Of a stretch of 46,756 nucleotides of DNA, positions 10,585 through 37,285 are shown one piece after another. The stretch is from Bacteroidales bacterium. GTDB taxonomy: Bacteria > Bacteroidota > Bacteroidia > Bacteroidales > UBA932. The first letter of the stretch is position 1. Every line of letters begins with the position of its first letter. The notes below the pieces were generated by a model. The model saw nothing but the letters and a program-made list of their open reading frames with translations. It was not told where the DNA came from and searched no databases. Position numbers and translations under genes: made by a program. The DNA is taken from assembly GCA_017479265.1 (NCBI GenBank), contig JAFVCK010000074.1, forward strand, positions 1 to 46,756, given 5' to 3'.

Positions 10585-10627
10585 AGGTAAAAACTTGGAA
10601 CAACAAAAAAGTGTTGTCCCAAGTTTT
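10585..10627 (-). terminator. strong intrinsic terminator ending the 17-gene PUL operon
   Basis: Positions 10590-10605 and 10612-10627 form a 16-bp stem with a 6-nt loop. In minus-strand RNA the only irregular pair is a G-U wobble, and the stem is followed by a run of five U residues (10590 down to 10586). A T-run also follows on the plus strand (10630 onward), so it may work both ways. It sits 25 bp beyond the stop codon of the last PUL gene. Confidence 0.88.
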
Positions 10628-10652
10628 ACGTTTTTTACTGTTGAAAATCTTG

Positions 10653-11990
10653 TCAAATCTCCCAGCCGGGCTCGTAATTGCGGGTATAGAGCTTCTGAGC
10701 GTCGGGAGATCCTATTATCCGGCCGTTTTCAGGATTCACTTCAAGAGAATGTCCTACCCTCTGGGCTATGTTTCCGAGCTGCACGAGCTGGGTGCTTATG
10801 CAGGCGTTGCGTATGTCGGAGTTCAGGGCCGCGCCCTTGCGTATCGCATCGAACCAGTTGGAGAAGTGGAAGGTGTCGAGCTTCTCGCAGGGATTTATGA
10901 TGTTGGCAGGCTCGAAAGGATATTCGCTCAGTACCTGCTTTATGACATTGCCCTTGAGGTCGCAGATCTTGTACTCGTCTCCTCCGTTGAGGAAAATGCT
11001 GCCGTTCTCGCCATAGAAAGCCACTCCGAGGCCGGCTCCGTCGGAAGGCGTGCTGTTGCAGCTGCGACCTTCCCAGCAGCCTGAGGCCTGCTCTCCGAAC
11101 TGGAAGGTAATAAGCTGGGTGTCAGGGAATTCCCAGTCGTCGTCATAGCGGAAGCGTCCGCCTACGGAAGTGACCTGGGTAGGGTAGTCCACGCCGAGTC
11201 CCCAGCGCATTATATCCACGAAATGGGTGCCGTTGTTGAGGGCTTCGCCCGTGCCCCAGCGGTAGAACCAGTGCCAATTGTAGTGAATGTAGTTGTCGTG
11301 GAACTCACTAACTCTCGGGGCAGGTCCCTGCCAGAGGTCCCAGTCCAGGTTGGAAGGCACGGGGACAGCGCGGCCGCGTCCTATGGAAGGACGGTTGGCG
11401 GTGTACCATGTCCTGGCGTTGCGCACCCTTCCTATGGAGCCGTCTCGGATTTCCTGTATGGCCGCAATGATATTGGGCCAGGAACGCCTCTGGTTGCCGG
11501 CTGTTATGACCTTGCCGTACTTCGCTGCGGCGGCAAGGAGAGCCTCGTTCTCTGAAGGACAGTAACTTGTGGGTTTCTCCAGATAGACATGCTTTCCGGC
11601 CTGCATGGCCATGATTGCGGCTTTGGCGTGCCAATGGTCAGGCATGGCGATGACCACGGCATCCATGCCCTTGTATTCGAGGAAACGCCTTATGTCCTGG
11701 TATCCGGCGGGGCGGTTGCCTGCCACCTTGCGGACCTGGTCCTGGGTCTTTGCGAGAGCGCCGAGGTCGCAATCGCAGAGCGCGGTCACCTGGCATCCGG
11801 GCATTTTGGCAAAGCCTGTGGCAAGGGCGAATCCCCTGGAATTCACTCCTATCACGCCAACCCTTATCCTGTCGTTGGCTCCGGCTACCGAAGCTGAGCT
11901 TGCGGCCGGGGTCCCGCCGCGAAGCCCTTGGGCGGAGAGAGCCGCTGCACCGGCAACGGCAATCTTGAGAAAGTCTCTTCTGCTTGTCAT
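10653..11990 (-). CDS. Tat-exported Gfo/Idh/MocA family oxidoreductase (445 aa)
   Basis: NAD(P)-dependent oxidoreductase of the Gfo/Idh/MocA family, expected to oxidise or reduce a sugar or sugar derivative in the periplasm. The protein begins MTSRRDFLKIAVAGAAAL: a twin-arginine signal (SRRDFLK) followed by an Ala-rich stretch, so it is probably exported folded with cofactor bound. The Rossmann start is IRVGVIGVNSRG (about 43-54), and the conserved EKP motif is EKPTSYCPSE. The C-terminal half (from about residue 190) contains the family's substrate domain, including NNGTHFVDIMRWGLGVD. The ATG at 11988-11990 is chosen because it starts the Tat signal; the longer frame overlaps the upstream gene. 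Last gene of the PUL operon, 2 bp after a tiny membrane-protein gene, followed by a strong terminator. Its exact substrate is unknown. Confidence 0.9.
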   Translation of the reverse strand: MTSRRDFLKIAVAGAAALSAQGLRGGTPAASSASVAGANDRIRVGVIGVNSRGFALATGFAKMPGCQVTALCDCDLGALAKTQDQVRKVAGNRPAGYQDIRRFLEYKGMDAVVIAMPDHWHAKAAIMAMQAGKHVYLEKPTSYCPSENEALLAAAAKYGKVITAGNQRRSWPNIIAAIQEIRDGSIGRVRNARTWYTANRPSIGRGRAVPVPSNLDWDLWQGPAPRVSEFHDNYIHYNWHWFYRWGTGEALNNGTHFVDIMRWGLGVDYPTQVTSVGGRFRYDDDWEFPDTQLITFQFGEQASGCWEGRSCNSTPSDGAGLGVAFYGENGSIFLNGGDEYKICDLKGNVIKQVLSEYPFEPANIINPCEKLDTFHFSNWFDAIRKGAALNSDIRNACISTQLVQLGNIAQRVGHSLEVNPENGRIIGSPDAQKLYTRNYEPGWEI

Positions 11991-11992
11991 AT

Positions 11993-12232
11993 CTAGAATA
12001 ACTTTTTGAATATCAATACTATAATGAAGACCGCAAGGCGCACGGCCCAAAGGGCTGCATAAAGGCACAGGGCCAGGGTCAGCATGAACCCCACCTGGGT
12101 GAACAGTTCGGACCAGGGCCGCTCATAATATATGATGGCTCCTATGTTGGTGGCTATTGCCGCCGCCAGACAGCCCAGCAGTATGAACAACTCTCGCCGG
12201 AGCGATTTTCCGCGTATTACCAAATCTTTCAT
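11993..12232 (-). CDS. small integral membrane protein (79 aa)
   Basis: A 79-aa protein with a short basic N-terminus (MKDLVIRGKSLRRE) and two hydrophobic stretches at about residues 15-34 and 46-76, the second long enough for one long or two short helices, ending in a basic FKKLF. I do not know a characterised family. Its reality is supported by tight packing: it begins 4 bp after the 439-aa oxidoreductase gene and ends 2 bp before the 445-aa one, in the same direction, with a good ATG. An inferred role is a membrane partner or anchor for the exported oxidoreductases. Confidence 0.72.
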   Translation of the reverse strand: MKDLVIRGKSLRRELFILLGCLAAAIATNIGAIIYYERPWSELFTQVGFMLTLALCLYAALWAVRLAVFIIVLIFKKLF

Positions 12233-12236
12233 AGGT

Positions 12237-13556
12237 TCAGAACTTCATGTAAGGAATCTTGTACTGCTCGGGGAATTCTATGGTGCGTCCCTCTTCCATG
12301 GCCATGTTTCCAAGCAGGCACAGGGTGGTGGCGCAATAGGCTTCTTCCACTACGTTTTCGGCCCTGCGGCCGCTCAGGCAGGCATCGCAGAATGCTGACA
12401 GTATGATATCGGAGCCGTCGTTGTCGGCCGCGACCATGCTCTGGCCTGCATTCACGCTGACCTTGCCGCTTATGACGGGGTGGGGAGTGAACCGGGACTG
12501 CAATTCCGGCCTCCAGGACGGCCCTGCGGCCGGAATAGAAGCGAAGGTCCGGGTCTTTATCTGCTGGAGCAGCTGTTTCATTCCCGAATTGAGGTTGTCG
12601 TTCTCAAGGTAGAAAACGCCCTTGGTGAGGTCCACTGTCCCGTCCTTGCACAGAATCTGGTCCTCCATGCCGTTGTACTTGTTCGAAATGAGGGACTCGT
12701 AGCATATTTTCCGGCCGTCGGAGTACCTGTAAGTCACATTGACGCTGTCATATACCTCGCGTCCGTCCTTCCAGTACACTATGTCGCCCATGCCGCAAAT
12801 CTGCGAAGGCATCTTGTCGATTGCCCAGTTGCAGACCTCTATCTGGTGGCAGGCGAGTTCGGTCATAAGGCCCGCGGAATACTCCTTGTACAGCCTCCAG
12901 TTGATTCTTCTCTCAAGCTCGGGTGAAGGCACCTCGCGCCTCCAGTCGGCGTTGCGGAACCAGTGGCAGCGCATTCCGACGACCTCGCCCAGGCTCCCTT
13001 CCCTTATCATCTGTATGCCCTTTATGTACTTCTCGTCGAACATTCTCTGCATGCAGTAGTACAGCACCCTGTCCGAGGAGCGGTATGCCTCATAGACGCT
13101 CTTGCACTCGTCCAGCGTAAGGGCCATGGCCTTTTCGCAGAAAACGTGCTTGCCCGCCGCCATCGCATCCAGGGTCATGCGGGCGTGAAGTCCCAGGGGA
13201 GTGGCTATTATGACTCCGTCTATCTCCTTGTCTTCCAGGAGTTTCCTGTAATCCGTATAGGTCCTCGCCGAGGGCACCATGGCGTGGGCGGCATCGAGAT
13301 TGACCTTATAGTCGTCACATAGCGCCACGACCTCGGCATGGGCAATGGAGCGCATCATCACCAGATGATACTGCCCCCTGGAACCGCATCCTATGAGGGC
13401 TATGCGCGCCTTTCTTCCCTTTGTGGAGGCAGGCTCGCCGGGGGTACAGGACGACAGCCAGGGAGCGGTCGAAAGCAGCGCCGCGCCTCCTGTCAGCAGT
13501 CCGAGTCCCTTGAGGAACCTTCTCAGTCCAAGGTCAGGCTCTTGAGTTTCTTTCAT
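12237..13556 (-). CDS. exported Gfo/Idh/MocA family oxidoreductase, Tat/lipoprotein-like signal (439 aa)
   Basis: Gfo/Idh/MocA-type dehydrogenase, 439 aa. The N-terminus has a twin-arginine-like motif (LRRFLKGLGLLTGG) followed by a possible lipobox LSSC at about residue 31, suggesting a folded lipoprotein exported by Tat. The Rossmann segment is ARIALIGCGSRGQYH. The usual EKP motif reads EKA (CEKAMALT), keeping the catalytic-region lysine. The C-terminal domain includes ELACHQIEVCNWAI and a Trp/Tyr-rich section. The ATG at 13554-13556 overlaps the apbE-like stop codon as ATGA, indicating translational coupling; a frame reaching to 14084 only runs over the apbE-like gene and is rejected. It belongs to the redox block at the end of the PUL. 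Substrate unknown. Confidence 0.87.
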   Translation of the reverse strand: MKETQEPDLGLRRFLKGLGLLTGGAALLSTAPWLSSCTPGEPASTKGRKARIALIGCGSRGQYHLVMMRSIAHAEVVALCDDYKVNLDAAHAMVPSARTYTDYRKLLEDKEIDGVIIATPLGLHARMTLDAMAAGKHVFCEKAMALTLDECKSVYEAYRSSDRVLYYCMQRMFDEKYIKGIQMIREGSLGEVVGMRCHWFRNADWRREVPSPELERRINWRLYKEYSAGLMTELACHQIEVCNWAIDKMPSQICGMGDIVYWKDGREVYDSVNVTYRYSDGRKICYESLISNKYNGMEDQILCKDGTVDLTKGVFYLENDNLNSGMKQLLQQIKTRTFASIPAAGPSWRPELQSRFTPHPVISGKVSVNAGQSMVAADNDGSDIILSAFCDACLSGRRAENVVEEAYCATTLCLLGNMAMEEGRTIEFPEQYKIPYMKF

Positions 13557-14341
13557 AAATCGTATGTTTTGACTTCCGTTTCCGGAAAATTTTCCATTAT
13601 GCTCTCCCTTTCCTGCGGGGTGGCAATCATCATTGCGGTGCTCAGGACCTCCGCCTCCAGAGGGTCGCGGCCGACGACGGTCACTATCCTGCGGCTGTTC
13701 ACGGGGGTCCCGTCGCCGGGATTGATTATATGTCCGCTGTAAGAAGGCCTGTTTCCCGATACGGAAAGGCAGTTGTCCTTCAGGCAGACTTCGCACACCT
13801 GACCCTCCTCGTAGGGATTGGCGACGGATGTCTTCCAGCAGGGGCCGAAGGGGTGAGAGCCCATGGCCAGAATGGAACTGCTGCCGAAATCCACGAATGC
13901 GGAGGTCACTCCCCGGGATTCCATCAAGTCCTGTATGTATTTGAGCGCCAAGCCCTTGCCCATTCCTCCGAAATCCAGTTTCTCTCCGCCGGTGTCTATT
14001 GCTCCCGCGCTCCAGCGTAGTTTCCTGAAGTCGTGCTTGGTGATATCGAAAAGGCCTCCGGTGCGAAGCCACCATCCCGAACATATCTCCAGGACCGTCT
14101 GAAGGTCCGGGCTAAGGGTGCTTACAAGGCCCTCGTTTATCTTATATACCTCGCTTTCTGGAGAGAAGCGGCTCAGCAATCCGTCCATTCCGGCGAGATT
14201 CGAGCATATATTTTCCCATATATCTTGAGCCGGCCTCCTCTCAATGTCGCAGACCAGCATATCGAACCTCGTGCCCATCACAAGAGGAATGCTCCCGTGG
14301 AAGGCCCGTGACCCGGCTATATATGAAAAACTATTCTCCAT
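13553..14341 (-). CDS. divergent ApbE-like FAD:protein FMN transferase
   Basis: A 262-aa ApbE-family protein. Classical ApbE enzymes transfer FMN from FAD to a Thr/Ser of a target motif such as DxxTGAT. Family landmarks are visible: MGTRFD near the N-terminus, GGLFDITKHDFRKLRW, DFGGMGKGLALKYI, and HIINPGDGTPV. Two positions deviate: the usual V-N-L-G-G-N segment reads VDFGSSS, and the metal-binding D of the D-A-L-S-T motif is Glu (AEVLSTA). Most ApbE proteins are secreted or lipoproteins; this one shows no signal peptide from either start. I chose ATG 14339-14341 (MENSF), which overlaps the upstream gene by 11 bp; a start at 14365 would overlap by 35 bp. It sits between exported oxidoreductases and is coupled by ATGA to the next. 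No protein in the PUL shows a DxxTGAT target. Active transferase function is uncertain. Confidence 0.72.
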   Translation of the reverse strand: MENSFSYIAGSRAFHGSIPLVMGTRFDMLVCDIERRPAQDIWENICSNLAGMDGLLSRFSPESEVYKINEGLVSTLSPDLQTVLEICSGWWLRTGGLFDITKHDFRKLRWSAGAIDTGGEKLDFGGMGKGLALKYIQDLMESRGVTSAFVDFGSSSILAMGSHPFGPCWKTSVANPYEEGQVCEVCLKDNCLSVSGNRPSYSGHIINPGDGTPVNSRRIVTVVGRDPLEAEVLSTAMMIATPQERESIMENFPETEVKTYDL

Positions 14342-15479
14342 TTGCCATTTGTACCGCCCGGCCAATCAACCTGTATTTGGTAAGGGTGTTGCCTGCCTCG
14401 TGCTCGGGGAAGGCCTTTTCGCCTCTTATGTATGCGAGGAAGTCCTTGAGTACCAAGGAGAAATGGTCCTCGTGCGAGAGACTGTCCTTGGGAAGCGTCC
14501 CTTCGAAGCCGGAGTATTCAGCCTCGAAACTGTCAGTGCCCTCGAAGTCCCAGATTACTTCTATCCCAACGGATACTCCCTTGATGCACAGTATCATGCT
14601 GCCGTTTGCATATACGTTGAGCACCCCGTCTTCAATCCAGGGCTCCAGATATGAGGGGAAGTCCCCGGCACCGGTTGACAGCCTGAACTGTTCCCTTGTA
14701 ATCGGAGTGGTCCAGTGGCGGGCGCTCACTACCGATACGTCCTCCTGGCTTATGGCCTGCCCGGGGAAACACTCCGTCATGACCATGTCTATGTAATGGG
14801 TGGTCACATCCGCTATTCCTTCTCCCTGGCAGCGTATGTCGTAGTACCATTCGGGGCGGGTGAGGGGCTTGCCGTCCACCTCCTTGTAGAAATGGTGGAC
14901 GCTGCGAATCCTGACCGCAGGAGCCCCGGGGCTTCCCGGCTCTATGGGATGGGAGGAGAACCATTCCCGAAGGGCTATGTTCCCCGCCACCGTGCGCTCT
15001 GTCATAAGTTCCTGAATGACAAGACCTTTCTCTCTTGCCAGGGCGTATGCCTGCTCAAGGATGTCAATGTCGGCGGCACTTATGGCCATGGGCTTGTCTG
15101 ACAGCACGTTATATCCCTTGGACACGGCATGCAGTATGTAGGCGGCCTTGTTGCGGTTGTTGCCCGCGAGTATCACCGCCTCTCTTCCCGAGGCCTCGGG
15201 CAAGGTCTCGAGCGGAGAGCCTTCCACTATGACTTCCTTCCAGTTGCAGGGGGCCTCGGAACGGGAGTTGTAACCTTCTATGGCGGCGAGGTACTGCTCC
15301 AGTTCCGGCCCTGCGGGAGCATAGACCCTCACGGTGGGGTCCACGTCGGGAAGGCTGTATTTCTGCACTAGGGAGGCGTGGAAATGGCCGGGGTCCACAA
15401 CGCTGAGCCGGACGGTCCTTCCAGAGGAACATCCGGCAAGACAGGCAGCCAATGCCATTATGGTCAACGCTTTATTCAT
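14331..15479 (-). CDS. lipoprotein Gfo/Idh/MocA-like oxidoreductase (382 aa)
   Basis: A 382-aa lipoprotein with signal MNKALTIMALAACLAGCSS (Cys17). After it comes a Rossmann-like segment beginning VRLSVVDPGHFHASLV, where the usual GxGxxG glycines are not evident; the middle has the family's SDKPMAIS motif and MTERTVAGNIALREWF, and the C-terminal domain includes GIADVTTHYIDMVM. The missing glycine motif means nucleotide binding is less certain than in its neighbours. The ATG at 15477-15479 is chosen for the signal peptide and overlaps the previous gene by 8 bp. It is the second member of the four-protein redox block. Function is inferred as an envelope-facing sugar oxidoreductase or a relative that has lost catalysis. 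Confidence 0.8.
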   Translation of the reverse strand: MNKALTIMALAACLAGCSSGRTVRLSVVDPGHFHASLVQKYSLPDVDPTVRVYAPAGPELEQYLAAIEGYNSRSEAPCNWKEVIVEGSPLETLPEASGREAVILAGNNRNKAAYILHAVSKGYNVLSDKPMAISAADIDILEQAYALAREKGLVIQELMTERTVAGNIALREWFSSHPIEPGSPGAPAVRIRSVHHFYKEVDGKPLTRPEWYYDIRCQGEGIADVTTHYIDMVMTECFPGQAISQEDVSVVSARHWTTPITREQFRLSTGAGDFPSYLEPWIEDGVLNVYANGSMILCIKGVSVGIEVIWDFEGTDSFEAEYSGFEGTLPKDSLSHEDHFSLVLKDFLAYIRGEKAFPEHEAGNTLTKYRLIGRAVQMANGE

Positions 15480-16473
15480 ATTTGCGCAGAAGTTTGGCTG
15501 CATCCTTGCGCCCCGCTTTCATGGCCTCGGCTATGCTCACGGGCTTTCCTCCCTTGGCCTTGCTCATGTTGGAAGCCTTCATGAAGGCGTAAATCTCCAC
15601 CGTCTCTTCGCGGCTCACGGGAGGCTCGCCGCTGCGGAAGAATGTAAGTATCTGGTCCAGAAGTACTTTGTATCCTGCATATCCTCCAGCCTCTACGGCT
15701 CCGTCCTTGGTGAAGGCGGTGCCTCCGTAGATGGCAGGGCCGCTGACTATGGCCCTGAAAGTGCCCAGCCTGCCGTCGGACCACAGCCCCGTCACTATGT
15801 CTCCGTCGGGGGTGGACATCCTGCTTACCGTCTCGCAACCCGTGCCCATAAGGGTGTATAGAGTCTCTACTCCATGGATGCCGTAGAATCCGAAATCGGG
15901 ATGGGTAGGCTCGGTTTTATGCGGGGAATAGCAGTCCGCCCCGAGAATGGCTCCGAACTTTCCGCCGCGAAGCTCAGCGTTGCGGGGCGAAAACCTCAGG
16001 GCCGAAGAGGAGAAGATGGGGATGCCGTACCTGTCGGCCAGTTCGTAGATGGCGAGGGCCTCGCCGAGGGTCGCTCCTATGGGCTTGTCTATGTAGCAGG
16101 TCTTGCCGCTGCGGAACACCTCTACGGCCTGCTCCGGATGAAGCCTGCCGTCGTTGGTCTCGAGCATGACGAAATCCACCATGTCAAGCATTTCCCGGAT
16201 TGACGAGCAAATCTTTACGCCGTGCTTCTCCACTTCCTTGATATAGCCGGGAATACGGCTGAAACTGGACTCTATGGTCCTTGAACCGTAGGGGTAGGCG
16301 GCCACCACTTCGAATTCCCTGACGAAGGGGTCGTCGGAATCGGAGTTCAGCAGCTCGGTAAAGGCCGTGGAATGGGATGTGTCAAGCCCTATAATGCCTA
16401 TTTTCTTTACTTCCTGTGCCCCGGCCGCTATCGTAAGCAGAGCGAGAACCAAAATCGCAAGTGTCTTTTTCAT
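15472..16473 (-). CDS. Sec-exported Gfo/Idh/MocA-like oxidoreductase (333 aa)
   Basis: A 333-aa protein with a plain Sec signal peptide (MKKTLAILVLALLTIAAGAQ, cleavage near residue 19). The mature part opens with KKIGIIGLDTSHSTAF, a Rossmann start typical of a Bacteroidota branch of the Gfo/Idh/MocA family, and contains IDKPIGATLGEAL in place of EKP. The protein is shorter than classical members but has both an N-terminal nucleotide-binding part and a C-terminal alpha/beta part (from about 130). No twin-arginine pair is seen, so it would have to bind NAD(P) after export or act without it. The gene starts at ATG 16471-16473, 2 bp from the DUF4855 gene, and overlaps the next gene by 8 bp. Confidence 0.83.
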   Translation of the reverse strand: MKKTLAILVLALLTIAAGAQEVKKIGIIGLDTSHSTAFTELLNSDSDDPFVREFEVVAAYPYGSRTIESSFSRIPGYIKEVEKHGVKICSSIREMLDMVDFVMLETNDGRLHPEQAVEVFRSGKTCYIDKPIGATLGEALAIYELADRYGIPIFSSSALRFSPRNAELRGGKFGAILGADCYSPHKTEPTHPDFGFYGIHGVETLYTLMGTGCETVSRMSTPDGDIVTGLWSDGRLGTFRAIVSGPAIYGGTAFTKDGAVEAGGYAGYKVLLDQILTFFRSGEPPVSREETVEIYAFMKASNMSKAKGGKPVSIAEAMKAGRKDAAKLLRKYE

Positions 16474-16475
16474 AC

Positions 16476-17714
16476 TCAGTTATCGTCCCTCAGCGGCCTT
16501 TCGACCACAAATTTGCAGAAATCGTTGAACAGCTCCCGGTCTATCTCCGAGGTGGAATATTTCAGCCAGCGGACGGCCCAGCTGCCCTGGTAATAGACCA
16601 GTTTGCAGTTGTCCCAGACCTCGTAGTCCCTGGCGGCCTTCATATAGTCCCTCAGCCTGTAGCCCCATTTGTATTCGGAAGTGTCAAGGACCTTTCCGTC
16701 GAACTCTATTTCCATTCCCATGCCGTTCTCCAGCACGTCCTGGCAGGCGGTCGTCAGCCTGTCGTAGGTTATCTCTTCGGAGAAGAAATAATTGGGCTGC
16801 ATGAAGGCGTAGGTGAATCCGTACTGCTTCCAGTTGGTATAGCCGTAGGCATGGAAATAGGGTATCCAGTTGAAAGAATACTTCATGGGCTGCAGGTACC
16901 GGCTTATGTCTATCAGTATGTCGTCCACGAAGTCGGAACGCTCCGCCGTGAGGTAGAAGCCTCCGAGCTCCACGTTCTGGTAATTCCTGGCGTTGAACAG
17001 CTTGATGACGGTGTCTATGTACCATTTCACGGCGGTCAGCCTGTCCTTGGACTTGGAGAAATCCATGGTCTTGCCGTCTATTTCGCCCCAGTAGGTGGTG
17101 CCTCCGCTCTGGTTCTGGCCGTAATTGTTGTAGCGGTATTCTATGGGTTCGGGGATGCCGACCACTATCTGGCGCTTGTGGGAGGGCTGTCCGAGGGTCT
17201 TTGCTGCATCACCGACGGCCCTGTCTATGGCTCCGACATTGACATAGTCCTGGAAATAGTAGTCAGCCAGGCTCTCCCAGTCGCTCTTGTTGGCTGATTC
17301 GAGATAGTTCCCGTTGTACTTGTATCCGGTTATGAAGGTCTTGTTGCCGTTATGGCCTCCGCAATCCATGAATTCCAGGCAGAGGAAGGCATCGAAAAGC
17401 CAGTGGGACTTTCCCGTAGCGGGGTCGGTCCAGGACACATAGTCCCTCATGTACTCTTCCGTCCAGTTGTACGGGCTGCGGTGGGGACTGTAGCCGTAAA
17501 CCAGCACCATGTCGGTATATGCAGGAATCTCCTTGCGGGTCCCGTCATCGTCCTTGGAAGGGTCCGTGGAAGAAGGATCGTCCGAATGATATGGAGATTC
17601 TGAAGGGTCAGCGGACCCGTCCTTGCTGAAATCCCATACAGGAATATCCTTGGGAGTGGTCTGGCATGAGGCGCACAGGGCCGCTGCCAGAAGCAATGCA
17701 AATGTTTTTCTCAT
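16476..17714 (-). CDS. DUF4855-domain lipoprotein
   Basis: A 412-aa lipoprotein. Signal peptide MRKTFALLLAAALCASC (Cys17) is followed by the short segment DIPVWDFS and a Ser/Asp/Pro-rich linker to about residue 62. From about residue 66 (TDMVLVYGY) to the end the sequence matches the DUF4855 pattern, a TIM-barrel-like domain in Bacteroidota and Firmicutes surface proteins, with the characteristic ELGGFYLTAE and FTYAFMQPNYFF sections. Glycosidase activity is suspected for this domain but unproven. Its start ATG overlaps the previous stop codon as ATGA. The same IPVWDF tag follows the lipobox of the neighbouring phosphodiester glycosidase, which suggests a shared location at the cell surface. 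Confidence 0.82.
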   Translation of the reverse strand: MRKTFALLLAAALCASCQTTPKDIPVWDFSKDGSADPSESPYHSDDPSSTDPSKDDDGTRKEIPAYTDMVLVYGYSPHRSPYNWTEEYMRDYVSWTDPATGKSHWLFDAFLCLEFMDCGGHNGNKTFITGYKYNGNYLESANKSDWESLADYYFQDYVNVGAIDRAVGDAAKTLGQPSHKRQIVVGIPEPIEYRYNNYGQNQSGGTTYWGEIDGKTMDFSKSKDRLTAVKWYIDTVIKLFNARNYQNVELGGFYLTAERSDFVDDILIDISRYLQPMKYSFNWIPYFHAYGYTNWKQYGFTYAFMQPNYFFSEEITYDRLTTACQDVLENGMGMEIEFDGKVLDTSEYKWGYRLRDYMKAARDYEVWDNCKLVYYQGSWAVRWLKYSTSEIDRELFNDFCKFVVERPLRDDN

Positions 17715-19108
17715 CTTTTGTAAAGTCCTATGGTTGAGACGACTTTCCTGCTCTTTTCAGCAGTCTGGTCGCCAATGTGTTCCGTTCCTACCATCATGCC
17801 GGTGGAGCCTCCGCCGTCAAAGTTCACTGCATCCTTGCATCCGAGGCCCTTCATGACCCTGGCGAGTTCCACAAGGTTGAGGCCGGGACTTGCGGTGATG
17901 CGGCCGTCGCAGATGAACAGCACCACCTTGCCGTCCTCCCTGTATCCTACGGCCGTGCGGTCGCAGACGCTGCCGGGGCCGAAGATATCGTAAGGCATTA
18001 TCTCAAAGTTGTTCAGGTAATATTCCGTTCCCTTGTCCGTCTCTTCGAAGTTGAACGGAATCTTGCCGTCCTTCAGCAGCACCGGACCGGCGCTGAGGGC
18101 ATATTCCGGCTTCCAGTCCACAGGGGCGGCGGGATTGGAGACGGAGATTGCGCCGTACTTGCTTTCACCCCTTACCGACGGCAGGGGACGGTCGAAGTAG
18201 AAGTTGAAACTGTTGCCTGTGCCTGCCCAATAGACTGCGGGCCTGCCCTGGGCATCCACTCCGAAAATGCCCCTCGTGACGTTGTACATTATGTTGAATT
18301 CCTCGTCGCCGGAACGCAAGGAACCTCTGACAGAGGGGATTGCGCCATTCTCCTTGCCCGCCGTCACGGCCAGTCCCGTATGCCTTCCGTTGTAGAAATA
18401 TCCTCCGTTTATCATTACCATGCAGTCATCCTGGGCGGCGGACTGGTCGTCTATGGTTATGGCTTCGGAAGGGACGTTGACCCTGAGGTCCACCTTGCCA
18501 AGGTCGGCGAGGGCGTACCATGCGTGGAAATTGCGCTCCGACACCTTCGAAGTGGTCTCGTATAGTTCTATGCCGTCAGGCAAAACGCTGCGGCTGAGCT
18601 TGTTCCACTCAAGTTCCAGAGCGGCGGGAGCATCCTTCATGGCCGCCTGCGAAGGCTCTGTCCAGAGGGTTTTCCCCTCCTTGTCCACGAAGGCCCTTAT
18701 GGAATAGGTCTTGCCGAAATCAAGCAGGGCATCGCTGATTACCTGGAATACCTTGCCGTCCGAATCCATGGCCGGACCCCACTGTATGATGTCTTCTCCT
18801 CCTGCATTCCATCCGAGGCCCCACTTGCATCCCTTCACCTTCGAGGCCTTTGGGAAAGAATACTCCACCACTATGCTGCAATCCGTCGCAGTAACCTTGT
18901 CTATGACCAGAAGGTCGGTAAGTTCATATTCCTTTTCGGGGACGGGCTCGTCCTTGGAAGGTTCCTCGGAAGGACTGTCCGAAGGGCTTTCTGAAGGACT
19001 CTCCGCTGAGGGGTCGTCGCTTGTAAAGTCCCAGACTGGAATCTCCCTGGGCTTTTGCGAAGTGCAGGCGGCGCATAGCAGTGCCAATGCCAAATACTTG
19101 ATTTTCAT
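17711..19108 (-). CDS. NAGPA-type phosphodiester glycosidase lipoprotein
   Basis: A 465-aa lipoprotein of the phosphodiester glycosidase (NAGPA, formerly DUF2233) family. The human member removes GlcNAc from a GlcNAc-1-phospho-6-mannose diester, so this enzyme is expected to cleave sugar-phosphate diesters of a glycan. Signal MKIKYLALALLCAAC (Cys15), then EIPVWDFT and a (D/E)SPS-rich linker (about 25-60). Residues about 65-165 form a fibronectin/Ig-like part. The catalytic domain (about 185-465) shows MINGGYF, SAGPVLLKDGK, TAVGYREDGKVVLFICDGR and NFDGGGSTGMM, the conserved blocks of the family. The ATG 19106-19108 forms an ATGA overlap with the upstream stop, which favours it over the ATG 12 bp earlier. 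It lies among GH20 and DUF4855 genes. Confidence 0.88.
   Translation of the reverse strand: MKIKYLALALLCAACTSQKPREIPVWDFTSDDPSAESPSESPSDSPSEEPSKDEPVPEKEYELTDLLVIDKVTATDCSIVVEYSFPKASKVKGCKWGLGWNAGGEDIIQWGPAMDSDGKVFQVISDALLDFGKTYSIRAFVDKEGKTLWTEPSQAAMKDAPAALELEWNKLSRSVLPDGIELYETTSKVSERNFHAWYALADLGKVDLRVNVPSEAITIDDQSAAQDDCMVMINGGYFYNGRHTGLAVTAGKENGAIPSVRGSLRSGDEEFNIMYNVTRGIFGVDAQGRPAVYWAGTGNSFNFYFDRPLPSVRGESKYGAISVSNPAAPVDWKPEYALSAGPVLLKDGKIPFNFEETDKGTEYYLNNFEIMPYDIFGPGSVCDRTAVGYREDGKVVLFICDGRITASPGLNLVELARVMKGLGCKDAVNFDGGGSTGMMVGTEHIGDQTAEKSRKVVSTIGLYKR
18955..19018 (-). repeat. short in-frame tandem repeat coding a Ser/Pro/Glu linker
   Basis: Imperfect 12-bp units coding (D/E)SPS are repeated about five times in the N-terminal linker of the phosphodiester glycosidase. 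A looser version (DPS/ESP) occurs in the neighbouring DUF4855 lipoprotein. Such repeats can expand or contract by slippage without breaking frame. Confidence 0.65.
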
Positions 19109-28456: not shown

Positions 28457-28470
28457 ACTCAATTAATTGG

Positions 28471-28502
28471 TTGCGGCGGCACCGGTCAGGGTACCGCCGC
28501 AA
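28471..28502 (-). other. intercistronic hairpin between transport and enzyme genes
   Basis: A 13-bp inverted repeat (28471-28483 with 28490-28502; TTGCGGCGG core, one wobble) with a 6-nt loop lies in the 57-bp gap between the SusE/F-like gene and the SIS gene. No U-run follows on the minus strand, so it is more likely an mRNA processing or stabilising hairpin than a full terminator. Confidence 0.7.
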
Positions 28503-28513
28503 AGGGGTCGCTT

Positions 28514-30504: not shown

Positions 30505-32340
30505 TTAGTAATATGATATTTCGTAAGCAATAAGTCCGAGGTTCATGGCCATGGCATATACCTGCACCCTCTTTTCGGAACTCTTTCCGAACACAACGTC
30601 GCCTATCTGGCTCTTGTTTGCACCGTACCCGTTGGGGCCGAGAACGGCAAATCCGGGTTCGTATGCGAAAGGCGAAATCATTCCGGCGACACCATATCCC
30701 ATGTCGCTGAGGATTGCATCGTCGGTGGAGGAGCGTGAGGCGAAGATAAGACCGTCGGTGAGGGAAGTCTCGCCGGGAGCGTCACCTATGTCGCTGACTA
30801 CCAGCTGGTAGTAGAAGGAGTTGTTGTTCCAAGGGTCGGGGCTGCCCGCATACCAGCCGTTCATGGTGGCCATCAGGGTGTGGTCTCCCACCTTTACTAT
30901 GTCGCCGCCGACTGCGTTTCTCTGGTATTCTCCGCCGCCCATGTACCAGTAGGAAGCGTCGGGAACCAAAAGCGTGCCGTCGTAGGTGATATACTGCCTG
31001 AAGTTGCCGGATACGCTGGCGAAATGCACGTTCTCCGCGGAAGTGGCGTTGGCATCCAGAGGGATGATACTGGCGCTCCACCACAGGGATCCTTCATGTG
31101 CCTGGGCGCTGAAGCGGTCAGTCACTTTGCCTGAAGATCCGACTACGGAGAAGGCCGCGCGCCCGGCAGCGGATGCGCTGGTGGCTATCAGGGCCCCCTG
31201 AGTTACGTCTCCCGCTATCTTCATGTTGGAGAATGCCCAGGATGCGCCTGTGGCCCAATTGTAGAACCCGGCCCATTCTATGGACTTGGGCTCGTGGTCT
31301 ATTCCGTCAGTCCATGCGAAAATCCTGACGGTGCCGTTCTCGGCGTCGCTGCGGGTATCCACGTATGTGGCCGCCACAAGGTGACCTGCGTCGTCGGAGG
31401 CTATGGCCCAGAACTTCATCTTTTCGTCCAGTGTGGATATTTCGCCGTCGGTGTTGACAAGGTCGTTTCCGAGATATTCGCCGCTCATCCTGTCATAAAC
31501 AGGCATCTTGGAGACATCCTCGGCGTTGGACAGTATGAGGTAGTCGCCCACTACCGCCATGCTTCTGTTCGCGTCCTTGACCATGCCGTGAGGATCCTGC
31601 TCCGTAGGCTGGAAGGCGAACAGGGACTTGACCTTGCGCAGGCCTTCGAGTCCTTCGGGCTCGTCCAGGACCACCTTGTAGGTACCGGTGACGTTGCCGC
31701 TCTGCGAGACAACCTTGATTTCGCCGGCCTTGGTGAGGTCCAGCAGTCCCGTGGCCTCGTCATAGGCCTCGCACTGCAGCGTAGCCCATGGAGATACCTT
31801 GGGCCTGGTCTTGGTGATGAAAGGCTCGGTCTCTTCGTCGTAGGGTACGGTGACGGAGCCGTCATTGCCCTCGGAAGGGTGGACTATGGCATATACTATG
31901 TCAGGGTTGTCCATGGCCACGTCCCTCAGAAGAGCCAGGTCGGACTTGACATATACGGCGAGGAAGGTGTACTCCTTGGCCTTGCCGTCGGCGTATGTCA
32001 GGGTGGACTTGAATCCGCTGCCCAGGTCATGCAGGCCTGTCAGAGCCGGATTGAATGTGGCTCCGAGCGGAAGTTTCGCACTTATGCGCATCTGCGTCAA
32101 GTCGGCCTGTATGGGCTCCGTGTCGCTCAGATAATAGGGGATTGACACGGTGACCGTGCCGGCCGCCTCGTCTATTACGGCGGGATATTCCACCATCCTG
32201 TCATCCTTGGTGGATACGCTGACCGTGAGGCTCTGCAGGTTCGCATTGTCCTCAGAGAAATAGTTGTATTCGGGCTTGTGGCAACTTGCCGCGAGGCAGA
32301 GCATGAGCGCCGTCGTCAGATATAATCCTTTGTGTTCCAT
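30505..32340 (-). CDS. DUF5018-type PUL surface lipoprotein with propeller-like domain
   Basis: A 611-aa lipoprotein whose signal ends LAASC (Cys19). The N-terminal 220 residues form two or three Ig-like modules (NLQSLTVSVSTKDDRMVEYPAVIDEAAGTVTVSIPYYLSD) typical of DUF5018 proteins in PULs. From about residue 235 to the end it is clearly related to the C-terminal half of the next gene's product (FWAIASDDAGHLVA, SGNFRQYITY, YMGGGEYQRNAVGGD, YYQLVVSDIGD, VQVYAMAMNLGLIAYEI). So one shared 380-aa domain carries two different N-terminal modules. It occupies the position of SusE after susD, 1 bp from the susD stop. ATG 32338-32340 is chosen for the signal peptide. A glycan-binding role at the surface is inferred. 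Confidence 0.82.
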   Translation of the reverse strand: MEHKGLYLTTALMLCLAASCHKPEYNYFSEDNANLQSLTVSVSTKDDRMVEYPAVIDEAAGTVTVSIPYYLSDTEPIQADLTQMRISAKLPLGATFNPALTGLHDLGSGFKSTLTYADGKAKEYTFLAVYVKSDLALLRDVAMDNPDIVYAIVHPSEGNDGSVTVPYDEETEPFITKTRPKVSPWATLQCEAYDEATGLLDLTKAGEIKVVSQSGNVTGTYKVVLDEPEGLEGLRKVKSLFAFQPTEQDPHGMVKDANRSMAVVGDYLILSNAEDVSKMPVYDRMSGEYLGNDLVNTDGEISTLDEKMKFWAIASDDAGHLVAATYVDTRSDAENGTVRIFAWTDGIDHEPKSIEWAGFYNWATGASWAFSNMKIAGDVTQGALIATSASAAGRAAFSVVGSSGKVTDRFSAQAHEGSLWWSASIIPLDANATSAENVHFASVSGNFRQYITYDGTLLVPDASYWYMGGGEYQRNAVGGDIVKVGDHTLMATMNGWYAGSPDPWNNNSFYYQLVVSDIGDAPGETSLTDGLIFASRSSTDDAILSDMGYGVAGMISPFAYEPGFAVLGPNGYGANKSQIGDVVFGKSSEKRVQVYAMAMNLGLIAYEISYY

Positions 32341-32341: not shown

Positions 32342-34042
32342 TTATTTCTCCTCCTTGAATAAACCGCCCCATTCTGCGCTCTGCAGGCACAGGGAGTTGG
32401 TGCTGAGTTCGGATTTGGGTATGGGATAGACATTGTACTTGGCGGGGAAGGACCTCACCTGGTCGTCACATTCTATGACGGTGTAAGTAAAGTCAGAGCC
32501 GCTCTTGACAGGCTTTACGCCATGGAGTTTCTTGCCGTTGAGGGTCTCCTGAGCCAGGCCCCAGCGGACCAGGTCGAAGAAGCGGTGTCCTTCGAGGCCG
32601 AGTTCGCAGACCCTTTCCTTGCTAAGGTCCTTTACGTAAGCGTCCCAGCTGTTCCTCTGGGTGAGTTCGGGCAGGCCGACTCTGTCGCGTATGGTCTTGA
32701 GGTCGGCGTAGGCCTTCTCCCAATCGCCCTGACGGGCGTATGCCTCGGAGCGTATGAGATAGATTTCAGCCAGCCTCATTTCTATCCAGTACTGTCCGCT
32801 GAGAATGGAAGTGTAGTTCATCGCACCCTCGTACACGAACTTGCGGAAGAGATAGCCGGTGGTGGACTTGTGAACGTTGTCCTGGCCCTCGCTCTTGTAC
32901 TCCATGAATCCGTCCGCTCCGTCCTCGTAAATCTCCAGCTTGCGGCCTCTCCAGTCCGCTCCGTTGTAGAGTATGGAGGCATAGAAACGGGGCTCCCTGT
33001 TGTCGTACGGCTTGCCTCCGTAGAGGGTGGACAGGTTAGCCCAGTCGAAATTCTGGTACGTACCGCCCACCTTTATGTCGAACTTGGAGGCATATTCCTC
33101 GGTAGGGGTGGCGGCTGCGCCTACGTTTACGTCGTATGCCGCGCCGTCTCCGGGAGGACAGAAGTAATTGTTGAAATTATGCTGCTTGCCGGTGGAACCT
33201 CCGCTGCTCTGCTGGAACAGGACGGGGAGTATGAGTTCCTTGTTCTGCCAGGAAGTGAAAATCTTGTTGTAATCTTCGTATGTCGCACCAGGGAGGAGTT
33301 CGTACCATTCTTTGCCGAGAAGTTCGTTGCAGGCGTTGACCGCATCCTCCCAGCGTCCGGCATAGAGGGCGGCGCGGGCTCGCATGCCTATGGCTGCTCC
33401 CTTTGTGACCCTGCCGTAATCGGTGCCGGACCAGCTTTCGGGCAGGTCGGCCTGGGCCTTTTCATATTCCTTGATTATGAAATCCCAGCATTCCTTCGCG
33501 GTGGAACGGGCCTTGGCCTTGTCCTCGGGGCCGTCCACATGATTCTCGTCTGTCCTGAGAATGACTCCGCCGAACCTCAGCGTGAGCTCCTGATAGGCGA
33601 AGGCCCTGAGGAAACGCGCCTCGGCCAAACGGACCTTTACGACTTCCTGGTCCAGGTCCTTGATATAGCCGTAGTTGTAGTCGAAGAAGAATTCGTTTAT
33701 CTGGCGGATATAGGTATATGTCCCCCAGTTGGAGCGGAAGTTGCTGTCTTCGGTGATTATGTTCTGCTGGTAGAACATCTTGTTGACGGTGCCGCCGCCC
33801 GTGCCGTACCATGATTCCTTGACCAGGTCGCTGACGCAGTCGTCGAAAATGTATCCTGCCGTGATGTCGGCATTGGCATACAGCACGGAGTACAAACTCT
33901 TGACATAGAGGTCCATGTGCTCTTCCGAGTCATAGACTACGCTCTCGCTGTGCCATCCTGTGGGGTCCAGGTCGAGAGGGTTCTTGCAGGCGCTTATCGT
34001 CATTGCCGCAAGGGCCGCGTAAAGTATATGTCTTGCTTTCAT
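32342..34042 (-). CDS. susD: SusD/RagB family glycan-capture lipoprotein
   Basis: A 566-aa SusD/RagB lipoprotein, the lid of the SusCD outer-membrane glycan importer. Signal ends TISAC (Cys19), then CKNPLDLDPTGWHSESVVYDSEEHMDLYVKSLYSVLY. The TPR-containing N-terminal half shows VRLAEARFLRAFAYQELTLRFGGVIL, and the C-terminal SusD domain shows YWIEMRLAEIYLIRSEAYAR and DLSKERVCELGLEGHRFFDLVRWG, both family hallmarks. The C-terminal YPIPKSELSTN element is also typical. It lies 12 bp after susC in the same operon. The gene symbol denotes the family role; the substrate is unknown, but the neighbouring enzymes point to an amino-sugar glycan. Confidence 0.96.
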   Translation of the reverse strand: MKARHILYAALAAMTISACKNPLDLDPTGWHSESVVYDSEEHMDLYVKSLYSVLYANADITAGYIFDDCVSDLVKESWYGTGGGTVNKMFYQQNIITEDSNFRSNWGTYTYIRQINEFFFDYNYGYIKDLDQEVVKVRLAEARFLRAFAYQELTLRFGGVILRTDENHVDGPEDKAKARSTAKECWDFIIKEYEKAQADLPESWSGTDYGRVTKGAAIGMRARAALYAGRWEDAVNACNELLGKEWYELLPGATYEDYNKIFTSWQNKELILPVLFQQSSGGSTGKQHNFNNYFCPPGDGAAYDVNVGAAATPTEEYASKFDIKVGGTYQNFDWANLSTLYGGKPYDNREPRFYASILYNGADWRGRKLEIYEDGADGFMEYKSEGQDNVHKSTTGYLFRKFVYEGAMNYTSILSGQYWIEMRLAEIYLIRSEAYARQGDWEKAYADLKTIRDRVGLPELTQRNSWDAYVKDLSKERVCELGLEGHRFFDLVRWGLAQETLNGKKLHGVKPVKSGSDFTYTVIECDDQVRSFPAKYNVYPIPKSELSTNSLCLQSAEWGGLFKEEK

Positions 34043-34054: not shown

Positions 34055-37000
34055 TTAGAAGGTTATGTCAAGTCCGAAAGTGACGGTGCGCTGCTGGGGA
34101 TAGTATCCCGTGACCGCATTGGGGCTTTCGGGGTCCAGATACTTGAACCGGGTGAAAGTCAGAAGGTTGCTGCCCGAAACGGAGAACCTTACGCTCTGTA
34201 TGTTTATCTTGCGGGTAATCTTGGAGGGAATGGTGTAGCCCAGGCTTGCGTTCTTGAGACGCAGGTAGGCTCCGTTCCTCATCCAGAAGTCCGAAACGCG
34301 GTAGTTGTTGGCATAGGAGCCGCCGTTGACGGACAGCCTCGGGTACTCTGCATCCGTGTTGTCCGGCCTCCAGCTGTTCTCCACCAGGTAGAGAGGAGCG
34401 TTGTCGTAGCCTGCATAGAATGGACGTGTCAGAGGGTTGGCATCCGTAACTCCGTTGGCCCAGCGTCCCAGCAGCATCTTGTCGCAGAGTGCGGAGCCCT
34501 GGAACTGGAGGTTCACGTCGAAACCCTTCCAGCTCATGTCGAACTGGAATGCGTACATGAGTTCGGGACGGCTGTTGCGTGCAATCTGCACCACGTCATC
34601 GCTGTTTATCATGCCGTCGCCGTTGATATCCACGTACTTGATGTCACCAAGCTGCACATCCACTCCACCGGGAGCGGTGTCGAGGTCTTCCTGGGTCTGG
34701 TACAGGCCGTCGGACTTGTAGCCCCAGATGGCTCCTATGGAAGTGCCTATGGTGCTCTGCCAGGGCAGTACGTTGTCAGCCTCGGTCTTCTTGAGGATGC
34801 GGTTGCGTGCCCATGAAACATTGCCCGAAATCCTGTAGTAGAAGTCGTGGACCCTGTTCTCGTGGCGCAGCGACAGCTCGAAGCCCCTGTTGTCGAACTT
34901 GCCGTCGTTGACATTGGTGGGGTAGTGGCCGCCGAGGGAGGCGGGATATGCCGCGCTGATATTGTTGAGAATGTCGTAGGTGTATTTGTAGAACCAGTCG
35001 AACTCTGCGCTCAGCAGGCCCTTCCATGCGGAGAACTCGATACCTGCGTCGTATGTCCTGATATGCTCCCAGGTGAGGTCGAAGCGGGGATATGAGACCG
35101 TGTTGTAGAGAGTGGGCTGGGCCGTCTGTCCGAAGGCCACGGCGTTTATGTTGGTAGCGTAGCTCTTGCGGAACAGCCATGCGGTGGCGTTGTCGTTTCC
35201 TACTTCGCCCGCCGAAGCCCTGACTTTCAGCAGGTCTATGCTGCTGACATTGTCCTTGAACCAGTTTTCCTTGGAAATGACCCATCCTGCCGAAACTGAA
35301 GGGAAGAAGCCCCAGCGGTACTCCTTGGCGAATTTATAGGAACCGTCCAGACGGGCTGCAATCTCTATGAGGTAGCGGTCGTCGTAGGAGTAGTTGATAC
35401 GGCCCACGAAACCCGCGTAAGCGTCATGTCCGGAAGAGCTGCCTGTGGTCCTGGTCTTAGGATCGGACTGGCTGAGCTCCACTATGTCGAAGAAGTCGAA
35501 GTTCATTCCATTGCCCGAGAACTGGGTGCTGTTGCCCTGGTTGAGTTCGTACAGCACGAGGGCCGAAACGGAGTGCTTGCCGAAGGTGTTGGAATAGGAG
35601 ATTTCCGGACGGAGTATGGTCTGCCATATCCTCTGAGTCCCCATGTTGAGGTTGCCTGTCTCCAAGGCGTTGGAACACATTTTCGGCTCCTTGTCGAAGG
35701 TTTTGGCCATAAAGTTCCATCCCATGACCTTGTATCCGTAGGCGAAGGTCTTGGTGGTGATGTCACGGTAGTCCCAGCTGTAGCTGAGGGCGGCGCGAAG
35801 GCCTTTCAGGAATGGCGCGTTGTACTGGATCTTGCCCAGGGTCTCCACCTTCATCGTGCGTGTCTTGGAATAACCGCTGTTCTTGGCTCCATAGACGGCG
35901 TTCGCAACGAAAGCGTCGCTGGTGCGCATTCCGGAAGTAGCCATGCCCTTGTACTGGGGAGAAGTGTCCATTTCGTAGGTCTGGGGGACAAACGGCAGGG
36001 CGTACATGAGGCAGAAAGGCACCGTACCGCCGAGCTCTCCGTTTGCGAAGGACATCACGCCGGGCTGGTTGTAATCCTGTATCATCAGGCCCAGGTTCAG
36101 GCTTATGGTCAGGTTCCTGGTAGGCTTCGCATCCACGTTGGAGCGGATGTTGGTACGGTTGTTATAATGGTCCTCGAGGAATCCGTTCTGGTTCTGGAAG
36201 GCTCCGCTTATGTAGTAGTTCACCCTGCTGTTGCCTCCTGAAACGGAGAGGTTGTGCTGGTGGGTGAGGGTGGTGCGGAGCATGGGGTCTATCCAGCTGG
36301 TGTTCTCGATTCCGTCGGTGAGGTCGCCGTTGTTGACAAGAGCGATGTCGGCCGCCGTAAAGAAGGGCGTGGTCTCCTCGAGGGCATATCCCTTGGACAC
36401 CTGGTCCAGCTGGTAGGCGAGGTTGTAGTACTTCATGTACTGCTCGCCGTTCATCATCTTGGGCAGCATGGTAGGGGTGGAAAGCACCACTCTGCCGGAA
36501 TAGCTCACCGATGCCGAGCCTTCGTCTCCACGCTTTGTGGTGACAAGCACTACGCCGTTCGCGCCCTTCATTCCATATACTGAGCAGGATGCGGCATCCT
36601 TCAGTACGGAAATACTTTCGATATCGGCGGGGTTGACCGTGTTCATGTCCCTTTCTATGCCATCTACCAGCACCAGCACCGTACCGGCATCATTGTAGGA
36701 GGAATATCCTCTCACAAGGATGGATACCTGGTCGGAACCGGGCTGTCCCAGGGACTGCTGGGTGATGACTCCCGGCAGCTTTCCGACTATGGCCTGGGAA
36801 GTGTTGGTCACCGTGACTTTCTTGAGCTCGGTGTTGGATACTGCGGAAACGGAGCCCGTCATGTGAATCTTCTTCTGTGCTCCGTAACCGACTATGACCA
36901 CCTCGTCGATGTAATCGCTGTTGTTCTTCATGACGATGTCTATGACGCTGCGGCCGGCAACGGGGACGGTTTCGGTATTCATGCCAAGACAGGAGAATTC

Positions 37001-37243
37001 AAGCGACTGGCCTTCGGAGGCTACCCTGATGGTGTATGCTCCTGCGCCGTCGGTGGTCGTGCCCGTCTTGGTGCCCTTGACCAGGACTCCGACTCCTGGA
37101 AGGGGAAGCCCGTCCTCGTCGGTAACATGTCCTTTCACCGTGCTTTGTGCCAACGCAGGCACAGCGGACAGCACCGTCAGGACGAGGGCCAAAAGGCCTC
37201 CTCTGGAAGCGAAGTCCGTGAATGAGTGAAATTTGGCTTTCAT
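34055..37243 (-). CDS. susC: SusC/RagA family TonB-linked outer membrane transporter
   Basis: A 1062-aa SusC-type TonB-dependent transporter that imports glycan fragments through the outer membrane. Signal peptide to about residue 32 (LSAVPALAQ), then a carboxypeptidase-regulatory-like domain (about 34-110: VKGHVTDEDGLPLPGVGVLVKGT), the TonB box region DEVVIVGYGAQKK, a plug domain (about 120-235; VLVRGYSSYNDAGTVLVLVDG, YGMKGANGVVLVTTKRG) and a 22-strand-type barrel ending in TVTFGLDITF. Size is normal. First gene of the 17-gene operon; its ATG at 37241-37243 lies 34 bp downstream of a perfect -7 box. No extra N-terminal signalling (STN) domain is present, so it probably does not signal through an anti-sigma factor. 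Confidence 0.97.
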   Translation of the reverse strand: MKAKFHSFTDFASRGGLLALVLTVLSAVPALAQSTVKGHVTDEDGLPLPGVGVLVKGTKTGTTTDGAGAYTIRVASEGQSLEFSCLGMNTETVPVAGRSVIDIVMKNNSDYIDEVVIVGYGAQKKIHMTGSVSAVSNTELKKVTVTNTSQAIVGKLPGVITQQSLGQPGSDQVSILVRGYSSYNDAGTVLVLVDGIERDMNTVNPADIESISVLKDAASCSVYGMKGANGVVLVTTKRGDEGSASVSYSGRVVLSTPTMLPKMMNGEQYMKYYNLAYQLDQVSKGYALEETTPFFTAADIALVNNGDLTDGIENTSWIDPMLRTTLTHQHNLSVSGGNSRVNYYISGAFQNQNGFLEDHYNNRTNIRSNVDAKPTRNLTISLNLGLMIQDYNQPGVMSFANGELGGTVPFCLMYALPFVPQTYEMDTSPQYKGMATSGMRTSDAFVANAVYGAKNSGYSKTRTMKVETLGKIQYNAPFLKGLRAALSYSWDYRDITTKTFAYGYKVMGWNFMAKTFDKEPKMCSNALETGNLNMGTQRIWQTILRPEISYSNTFGKHSVSALVLYELNQGNSTQFSGNGMNFDFFDIVELSQSDPKTRTTGSSSGHDAYAGFVGRINYSYDDRYLIEIAARLDGSYKFAKEYRWGFFPSVSAGWVISKENWFKDNVSSIDLLKVRASAGEVGNDNATAWLFRKSYATNINAVAFGQTAQPTLYNTVSYPRFDLTWEHIRTYDAGIEFSAWKGLLSAEFDWFYKYTYDILNNISAAYPASLGGHYPTNVNDGKFDNRGFELSLRHENRVHDFYYRISGNVSWARNRILKKTEADNVLPWQSTIGTSIGAIWGYKSDGLYQTQEDLDTAPGGVDVQLGDIKYVDINGDGMINSDDVVQIARNSRPELMYAFQFDMSWKGFDVNLQFQGSALCDKMLLGRWANGVTDANPLTRPFYAGYDNAPLYLVENSWRPDNTDAEYPRLSVNGGSYANNYRVSDFWMRNGAYLRLKNASLGYTIPSKITRKINIQSVRFSVSGSNLLTFTRFKYLDPESPNAVTGYYPQQRTVTFGLDITF

Positions 37244-37277
37244 TAGCGTTATAATTTAGTTGTATTATCCAATACCC

Positions 37278-37285
37278 CAAAGTTA
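37278..37285 (-). promoter_or_regulatory. -7 box of the PUL operon promoter
   Basis: The minus strand reads TAACTTTG, an exact TAnnTTTG match, 34 bp before the susC ATG. No -33 TTG is present at the right distance, which fits a promoter that needs an activator. Confidence 0.7.

Follow-up and report, generated by a model that had tools for sequence, protein, structure and literature searches.

A Bacteroidales polysaccharide utilization locus with predicted amino-sugar hydrolases and a composite Gfo/Idh/MocA redox block

Genes and transcription signals of the locus

We analysed contig JAFVCK010000074.1 of a Bacteroidales bacterium (contig C20 of a 2.04-Mb genome in 77 contigs, 89% complete), the whole 46,756 nucleotides of which are called the window here. 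Seventeen genes on its minus strand run in one direction from 37243 to 10653, and at the 16 junctions neighbouring genes overlap by at most 11 bp or stand at most 57 bp apart. Adjacent susC and susD genes stand with genes for glycan-active enzymes in this operon-like run, which is, by its sequence, a polysaccharide utilization locus (PUL). Gene content, gene order, family matches and co-occurrence with other genes were observed directly. Counted from susC, the genes follow the order of the lines below, with the products assigned by Pfam except for unk717 and the 79-aa membrane protein; the gene for the 79-aa membrane protein escapes lists of open reading frames (ORFs) made with a 100-aa minimum.

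34055..37243, minus strand: SusC-like TonB-dependent transporter (PF07715, PF13715)
32342..34042, minus strand: SusD-like lipoprotein (PF07980, PF14322)
30505..32340, minus strand: DUF5018 lipoprotein (PF16410)
28514..30487, minus strand: SusE/F-like glycan-binding protein (PF16411, two stretches)
27428..28456, minus strand: SIS-domain protein, GlmS/NagB-II-like (PF01380)
24723..27431, minus strand: GH2 protein, nearest to the exo-beta-D-glucosaminidase CsxA (PF22666, PF18368)
23237..24721, minus strand: GH20 beta-N-acetylhexosaminidase (PF00728, E 1e-107)
21063..23216, minus strand: unk717, 717-aa exported protein with a predicted GH36-type alpha-glycosidase fold (structure model)
19105..21066, minus strand: DUF6259 exported protein (PF19773, E 2e-86)
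17711..19108, minus strand: NAGPA-domain lipoprotein (PF09992, E 3e-26)
16476..17714, minus strand: DUF4855 lipoprotein, TIM barrel (PF16147, E 2e-82; model and Z score)
15472..16473, minus strand: GFOa, Gfo/Idh/MocA-like protein (PF01408, 31.8 bits; alignment of 12)
14331..15479, minus strand: GFOb, Gfo-like lipoprotein (PF16490)
13553..14341, minus strand: ApbE-like protein (PF02424)
12237..13556, minus strand: GFOc, Gfo/Idh/MocA protein (GCGSRG motif; twin-arginine-like signal and lipobox, by eye)
11993..12232, minus strand: 79-aa membrane protein with two hydrophobic stretches (conserved after GFOc-type genes)
10653..11990, minus strand: GFOd, Gfo/Idh/MocA protein with a twin-arginine translocation (Tat)-like signal, SRRDFLK (NF058561; 8tdf)

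Four further features flank the run.

37278..37285, minus strand: putative -7 promoter box TAACTTTG before susC (from the sequence)
10578..10640, minus strand: intrinsic terminator hairpin (fold energy against shuffles)
37331..38728, minus strand: regulator with a periplasmic-binding-protein-like sensor and an AraC helix-turn-helix (PF13377, PF12833)
38473..39342, minus strand: ROK-family sugar kinase (PF00480; synteny)

A preliminary description of this DNA had placed 17 codirectional genes, with gaps of 57 bp or less, between a promoter at 37278 and a terminator at 10590, and each of these elements was recovered. The box TAACTTTG fits what we take to be the Bacteroides -7 consensus, TAnnTTTG, and no good candidate for a -33 box was seen near it. 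The hairpin at about 10590 has a fold energy of -21.9 kcal/mol against a shuffle mean of -9.6 (z -4.8; 0 of 200 shuffles as good) and is accompanied by a T run. A promoter and terminator scan across 9400-29399 stayed at shuffle level. The regulator and the ROK kinase lie directly upstream of susC on the same strand; because the regulator ORF overlaps the ROK gene by 256 bp, its true start is probably near 38470. The top NCBIfam match of the kinase is the ROK glucokinase family, under the cut-off. We count it with the locus because it stands inside the operon in 8 related loci, and with the kinase and the regulator the PUL comprises 19 genes. The gene run goes beyond chance, since the same order is found in other Bacteroidales families.

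Predicted amino-sugar enzymes and the conserved core

The amino-sugar target that had been proposed earlier for this PUL is well supported, because GH2, SIS and ROK genes and NagP/NagA/NagB genes are linked to such loci, the GH2 protein is CsxA-like, and the modelled fold of unk717 points the same way. The GH2 protein matches the CsxA structure 2vzo at E 1e-63; beta-mannosidase, the group that comes second, reaches 7e-32. Its first (acid/base) Glu aligns with that of CsxA, the second candidate (KNEMG) adjoins an alignment gap, and both Glu motifs are invariant in 12 of 12 aligned proteins. CsxA, the best solved relative, originates from a chitosan-degrading actinomycete, whereas the locus genes include no recognised chitosanase. 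The SIS protein scores 100.9 bits with the isomerase part of GlmS and about 50 bits with GlmD/NagB-II, all under the NCBIfam cut-offs, and its sequence makes it a probable glucosamine-6-phosphate deaminase/isomerase.

Scanning the genomes of named species yielded 27 related loci, from Alistipes, Muribaculaceae, Parabacteroides, Bacteroides, uncultured Bacteroidales, one member of the Kiritimatiellia and one unplaced bacterium. GH20, unk717 and DUF6259 are consecutive in 19 of the 27. NAGPA was seen in 13, in 11 of which DUF4855 adjoins it. The GH2-bearing loci are exactly the 11 SIS-bearing ones, and NagP/NagA/NagB occur in four of the five GH2-less loci with sufficient upstream view. Gene presence was scored by tblastn; ORF picking had missed NagB in L048, L050 and L059, the MFS gene in L050 and unk717 in L044. 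Six loci (L042, L047, L055, L057, L061 and L062) end within 3 kb past unk717, and absence of later genes was not counted there; L044 ends within NAGPA, L046 shows 3.9 kb past unk717 (DUF6259, then a susC piece), and L047, L052, L055 and L062 offer less than 6 kb upstream of it. Several loci are close kin, for example L046/L047, L050/L059 and L056/L058. In Parabacteroides L043, L045 and L049, the roughly 10 kb flanking unk717 to either side showed none of the other core genes. Two unk717 relatives of 39-40% identity (L064 and L065, from the unplaced bacterium and the Kiritimatiellia) also show no other core gene in the visible stretch.

A search of 393 genomes from the order found unk717 matches (E 1e-10 or better) in 32 genomes other than that of the host. 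Only two of these, both in other families, reach at least 50% identity, and none was found in the five genus or family relatives sampled. One of the two (G377, whose contig also yielded L053) has the gene order susC-susD-DUF5018-SIS-ROK-GH2-GH20-unk717-DUF6259-NAGPA-DUF4855. In the other (G289, same contig as L045) unk717 is solitary within 38 kb.

The structure model of unk717 has as its top neighbour in VIA-align FpGalNase, an alpha-galactosaminidase of Flavonifractor plautii, for which the passages of PMC11762096 that treat it give a three-domain GH36 layout. The likeness lies in the modelled fold, without a significant sequence match: unk717 profiles found nothing significant in the PDB (8x1b only at E 1.6), and four distant relatives matched no Pfam family. 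A GH36-type alpha-glycosidase fold is thus a prediction from the model. DUF6259 gave only chance PDB matches (antibodies), and its profile compares weakly with that of unk717 (36.5% probability over 63 columns) and more weakly still with that of DUF4855 (14%, 36 columns). Our literature search covered open-access papers, with most subscription papers outside its scope; among the papers covered, DUF4855 appeared in a single one, as a list entry, and no mention of DUF6259 was found. We found no assigned activity for the unk717, DUF6259 or DUF4855 families, whose fixed order beside enzymes indicative of glucosamine (GlcN) makes their substrates directly testable. In L058, a second, longer DUF4855-like gene (2604-4607; 667 aa, 33%) lies between SIS and ROK.

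On balance, we favour reading the locus as a PUL for a glycan with N-acetylated and free-amine hexosamines, mainly N-acetylglucosamine (GlcNAc) and GlcN, with a second, oxidative Gfo route. L052, in which GH20-unk717-DUF6259 is kept and neither NAGPA nor DUF4855 was seen in 10 kb, weighs against it. From these relationships we infer every activity, substrate and electron route given here. SusC/D, the DUF5018 protein and SusE/F would bind and import the glycan. GH20 would remove beta-GlcNAc and GH2 beta-GlcN, while DUF4855, DUF6259 and unk717, together with NAGPA, would cleave alpha-linkages and linkages inside the chain. Conversion by the ROK kinase and the SIS protein may lead GlcN into glycolysis, and GlcNAc would be processed via NagP-NagA-NagB, encoded elsewhere in the same genome. 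After that run (L108:8075-12361) comes a 393-aa gene whose product resembles, by eye, a mannonate dehydratase.

The phosphoglycan target named in the preliminary description fared less well. Under that explanation, NAGPA would cut GlcNAc-1-phosphate diesters in a teichoic-acid-like polymer, a capsule or a phosphorylated N-glycan, and the other enzymes would strip the rest. The NAGPA domain scores 93 bits against a curated cut-off of 25, and the NGGYF and DGGGS motifs are conserved when the protein is aligned with human NAGPA and 6u11. Since the domain is intact by motif, cleavage of sugar-1-phosphate diesters is possible, and so is a phosphodiester target; its place beside DUF4855 in 11 of 13 loci speaks for it. 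However, the match to the solved NAGPA lies mainly around DGGGS, and the NAGPA fold alone leaves the cut bond unfixed. The locus protein shares the domain and the DGGGS/NGG-F motifs with human NAGPA, the uncovering enzyme, but is a bacterial lipoprotein with relatives that carry a fibronectin-III-like N-terminal part. Moreover, no phosphatase or phosphodiesterase family other than NAGPA itself was found among the scanned locus proteins, and the 2-Mb genome has six NAGPA-domain genes (contigs C3, C76, C50, C17 and C20), which suggests a broader role of the domain. We consider a phosphoglycan substrate rather unlikely.

A partially de-N-acetylated bacterial exopolysaccharide similar to poly-N-acetylglucosamine (PNAG) or Pel would make DUF4855 a PgaB-like endo-hydrolase, with GH20 and GH2 finishing the beta chain and unk717 removing alpha-linked galactosamine or glucosamine. 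CsxA as the best match of GH2 and FpGalNase as the top structural neighbour of unk717 would suit such a substrate, and PgaB entries hold ranks 1, 2, 4, 6 and 8 among the neighbours of the DUF4855 model. These entries are nevertheless tied with unrelated barrels, and the identity to the PgaB C-terminal domain, which we take to belong to GH153, is 7 to 9%. In addition, L060 shows no DUF4855 with about 10 kb visible on each side of unk717, and the structure of PNAG has no need of alpha-type enzymes. This substrate appears improbable.

The redox block and its two modules

The preliminary description counted four Gfo/Idh/MocA proteins and an ApbE-like protein as an exported redox set. Signal peptides, Tat motifs and the lipobox were read by eye, and on this reading export stands for the four Gfo proteins but not for ApbE, in which no signal sequence is visible. 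The nucleotide-binding motif divides the Gfo proteins. In GFOa, GLDTSH replaces GxGxxG in 12 of 12 aligned sequences, and in GFOb it is PGHFHA in 6 of 6, so the idea that all four are ordinary dehydrogenases was ruled out; both retain the fold's lysine and a histidine, which presumably have roles in the Gfo fold. GFOc has GxGxxG in the form GCGSRG; inositol-type dehydrogenases are its best solved matches (7e-19), and it matches the GH109 enzyme 6t2b at 2e-14. GFOd has the glycine-rich loop in the near form GVNSRG and scores 142.2 bits with NF058561, the glycoside 3-dehydrogenase BT_2158 family, below the cut-off of 750; its best solved matches are 8tdf (E 8e-25) and 8tdh, the former of which we take to belong to the BT2156-BT2158 group.

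The ApbE-like protein matches PF02424 with 115.9 bits against a cut-off of 25.6. In 10 of 10 proteins of the PUL type, Glu stands where the genome's other, lipoprotein-like ApbE (contig C27) has Asp, at a position that is presumably the ApbE metal site. The locus ApbE is, by its sequence, divergent; because of this Glu and the lack of a visible signal, it may do its work in the cytoplasm, ahead of Tat export, or be no FMN transferase. The 79-aa membrane protein gave no Pfam match above cut-off; an identity with NQR2/RnfD was dropped, the match (E 0.06) being too weak for use.

The distribution of these genes shows that the block is a composite of two modules. The first is GFOa, GFOb and GFOd. 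At E 1e-40, GFOa occurs in 8 of 393 genomes, the host included; in the seven others it lies outside the PUL, clustered with GFOd in six and with NagP/NagA/NagB-type genes (at least 45% identity) in five. One of the two genomes without this Nag linkage shows only a 3.3-kb contig. In G289 the order is esterase-GFOd-NagP-NagA-NagB-GFOa-GFOb. Some sequence beyond DUF4855, or beyond where it would stand, is visible in 12 PUL loci (2.3 kb in L053 to about 5 kb); GFOa is present in six of the 12, and in five of these six it comes after NagP-NagA-NagB.

The second module is ApbE-GFOc-membrane protein. At E 1e-25, 11 of the 393 genomes have the PUL-type ApbE, with a GFOc-type gene in 10 of the 11 clusters (the exception is G289). 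In 8 of these 10 places, the window included, the gene after GFOc encodes the small membrane protein, with a diverged copy in G368. By these counts ApbE, GFOc and the membrane protein form a recurring unit. A census with its own profile placed the small membrane protein in 26 of 393 genomes (27 places), and upstream sequence is visible at 24 of these places. The gene immediately before it is of the GFOc type at 21 of the 24 and GFOd-like at one; 'GFOc-type' means here the best match among the window Gfo proteins, with identities of 30 to 100% and, in three cases, a match over part of the protein. The pair of GFOc and membrane protein is thus more frequent than the full set. Some of these clusters (L097, L111 and L135) have DUF1080 nearby. 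Since core and redox genes separate in related genomes, the whole locus was ruled out as one inherited block.

An oxidative arm for a hexosamine glycan probably stands beside the hydrolytic arm, and the roles of its parts we infer as follows. GFOd, perhaps also GFOc, would oxidise C3 of hexosamine glycosides in the periplasm; GFOa and GFOb, which lack the motif for nicotinamide adenine dinucleotide (NAD), would perform a follow-up step on the keto product; electrons may reach the membrane by way of ApbE, GFOc and the small membrane protein. We go further only tentatively, and with limited credence. The PUL may join its hydrolases, including a candidate alpha-hexosaminidase family (unk717), to an as yet undescribed route by which Bacteroidales would oxidise hexosamine glycosides in the periplasm. 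In it, the ApbE-like protein, the Tat-exported GFOc and the two-helix membrane protein would form a unit that links exported, NAD-bearing sugar dehydrogenases to the inner membrane and passes on their electrons, and GFOa and GFOb would act beside them as lyases or hydratases on 3-keto amino sugars. If true, the ApbE-GFOc-membrane-protein set would explain how exported NAD-dependent sugar dehydrogenases dispose of electrons.

The Gfo proteins might instead be NAD-recycling, GH109-like glycosidases, able to hydrolyse hexosaminides unaided and without net redox change. GH109 enzymes have the Gfo fold and act on N-acetylgalactosamine, and the 6t2b match of GFOc agrees with this view. The better matches of GFOc and GFOd to dehydrogenases, the missing NAD motif of GFOa and GFOb, and the recurrence of GFOc with ApbE and the membrane protein, odd for a redox-neutral enzyme, argue against it, and we lend this explanation little weight. 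That the Gfo/ApbE block is a functionally unlinked neighbour, joined by chance insertion, is very improbable: six of the 12 core loci show no Gfo gene and GFOa lives outside the PUL in seven genomes, but its place downstream of the core in the other six loci, its repeated company with Nag genes in both settings, and junctions among GFOa, GFOb, ApbE and GFOc with gaps of no more than 2 bp and overlaps of up to 11 bp speak for a connection.

Relation to known systems and neighbouring genes

PULs, NAGPA, CsxA-like GH2 enzymes and periplasmic 3-oxidation are already known. An oxidative route was reportedly set out by Withers and colleagues in Nature in 2024. In the closest system, BT2156-BT2158 of Bacteroides thetaiotaomicron, an exported Gfo/Idh/MocA dehydrogenase, of which GFOd is a distant relative, acts on periplasmic glycosides: the passages concerned describe BT2158 as a periplasmic glycoside 3-dehydrogenase (PMC11300592) and BT2157 as a DUF1080 3-ketotrehalose hydrolase (PMC9007349). 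The PUL differs in having amino-sugar genes, GFOa, GFOb, ApbE and the small membrane protein, and in lacking DUF1080 and a sugar isomerase; no DUF1080 was found on the contig, and two proteins (three matched stretches) occur elsewhere in the genome. LacABC of Caulobacter, a membrane-bound lactose 3-dehydrogenase according to the part of PMC9007349 that deals with it, resembles the proposed arm in periplasmic, membrane-bound sugar 3-oxidation, as compared by description only.

The combination with an exported oxidoreductase set had been called unfamiliar from described PULs. A redox route for glycosides was already described in BT2156-BT2158, but the combination seen here, GFOa/GFOb with Nag genes and ApbE-GFOc-membrane protein, was not found within our literature scope, nor was catabolism of 3-keto-GlcNAc by such enzymes or ApbE with Gfo in PULs. 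These negatives are weak evidence of novelty.

Three minor observations concern the uptake genes and the rest of the window. Over residues 285-655, the SusE/F-like protein is similar to the product of the DUF5018 gene in G377 (31%), so the DUF5018 and SusE/F-like neighbours have a C-terminal part in common. A tRNA-Gly gene (6455-6528) lies inside the longest reading of an M16 peptidase ORF (6401-9442), and because it sits in the first part of the ORF, the true start of the peptidase is further downstream. At the contig start, nqrC, nqrB and nqrA-like genes (433-3789) lie on the same strand as the PUL.

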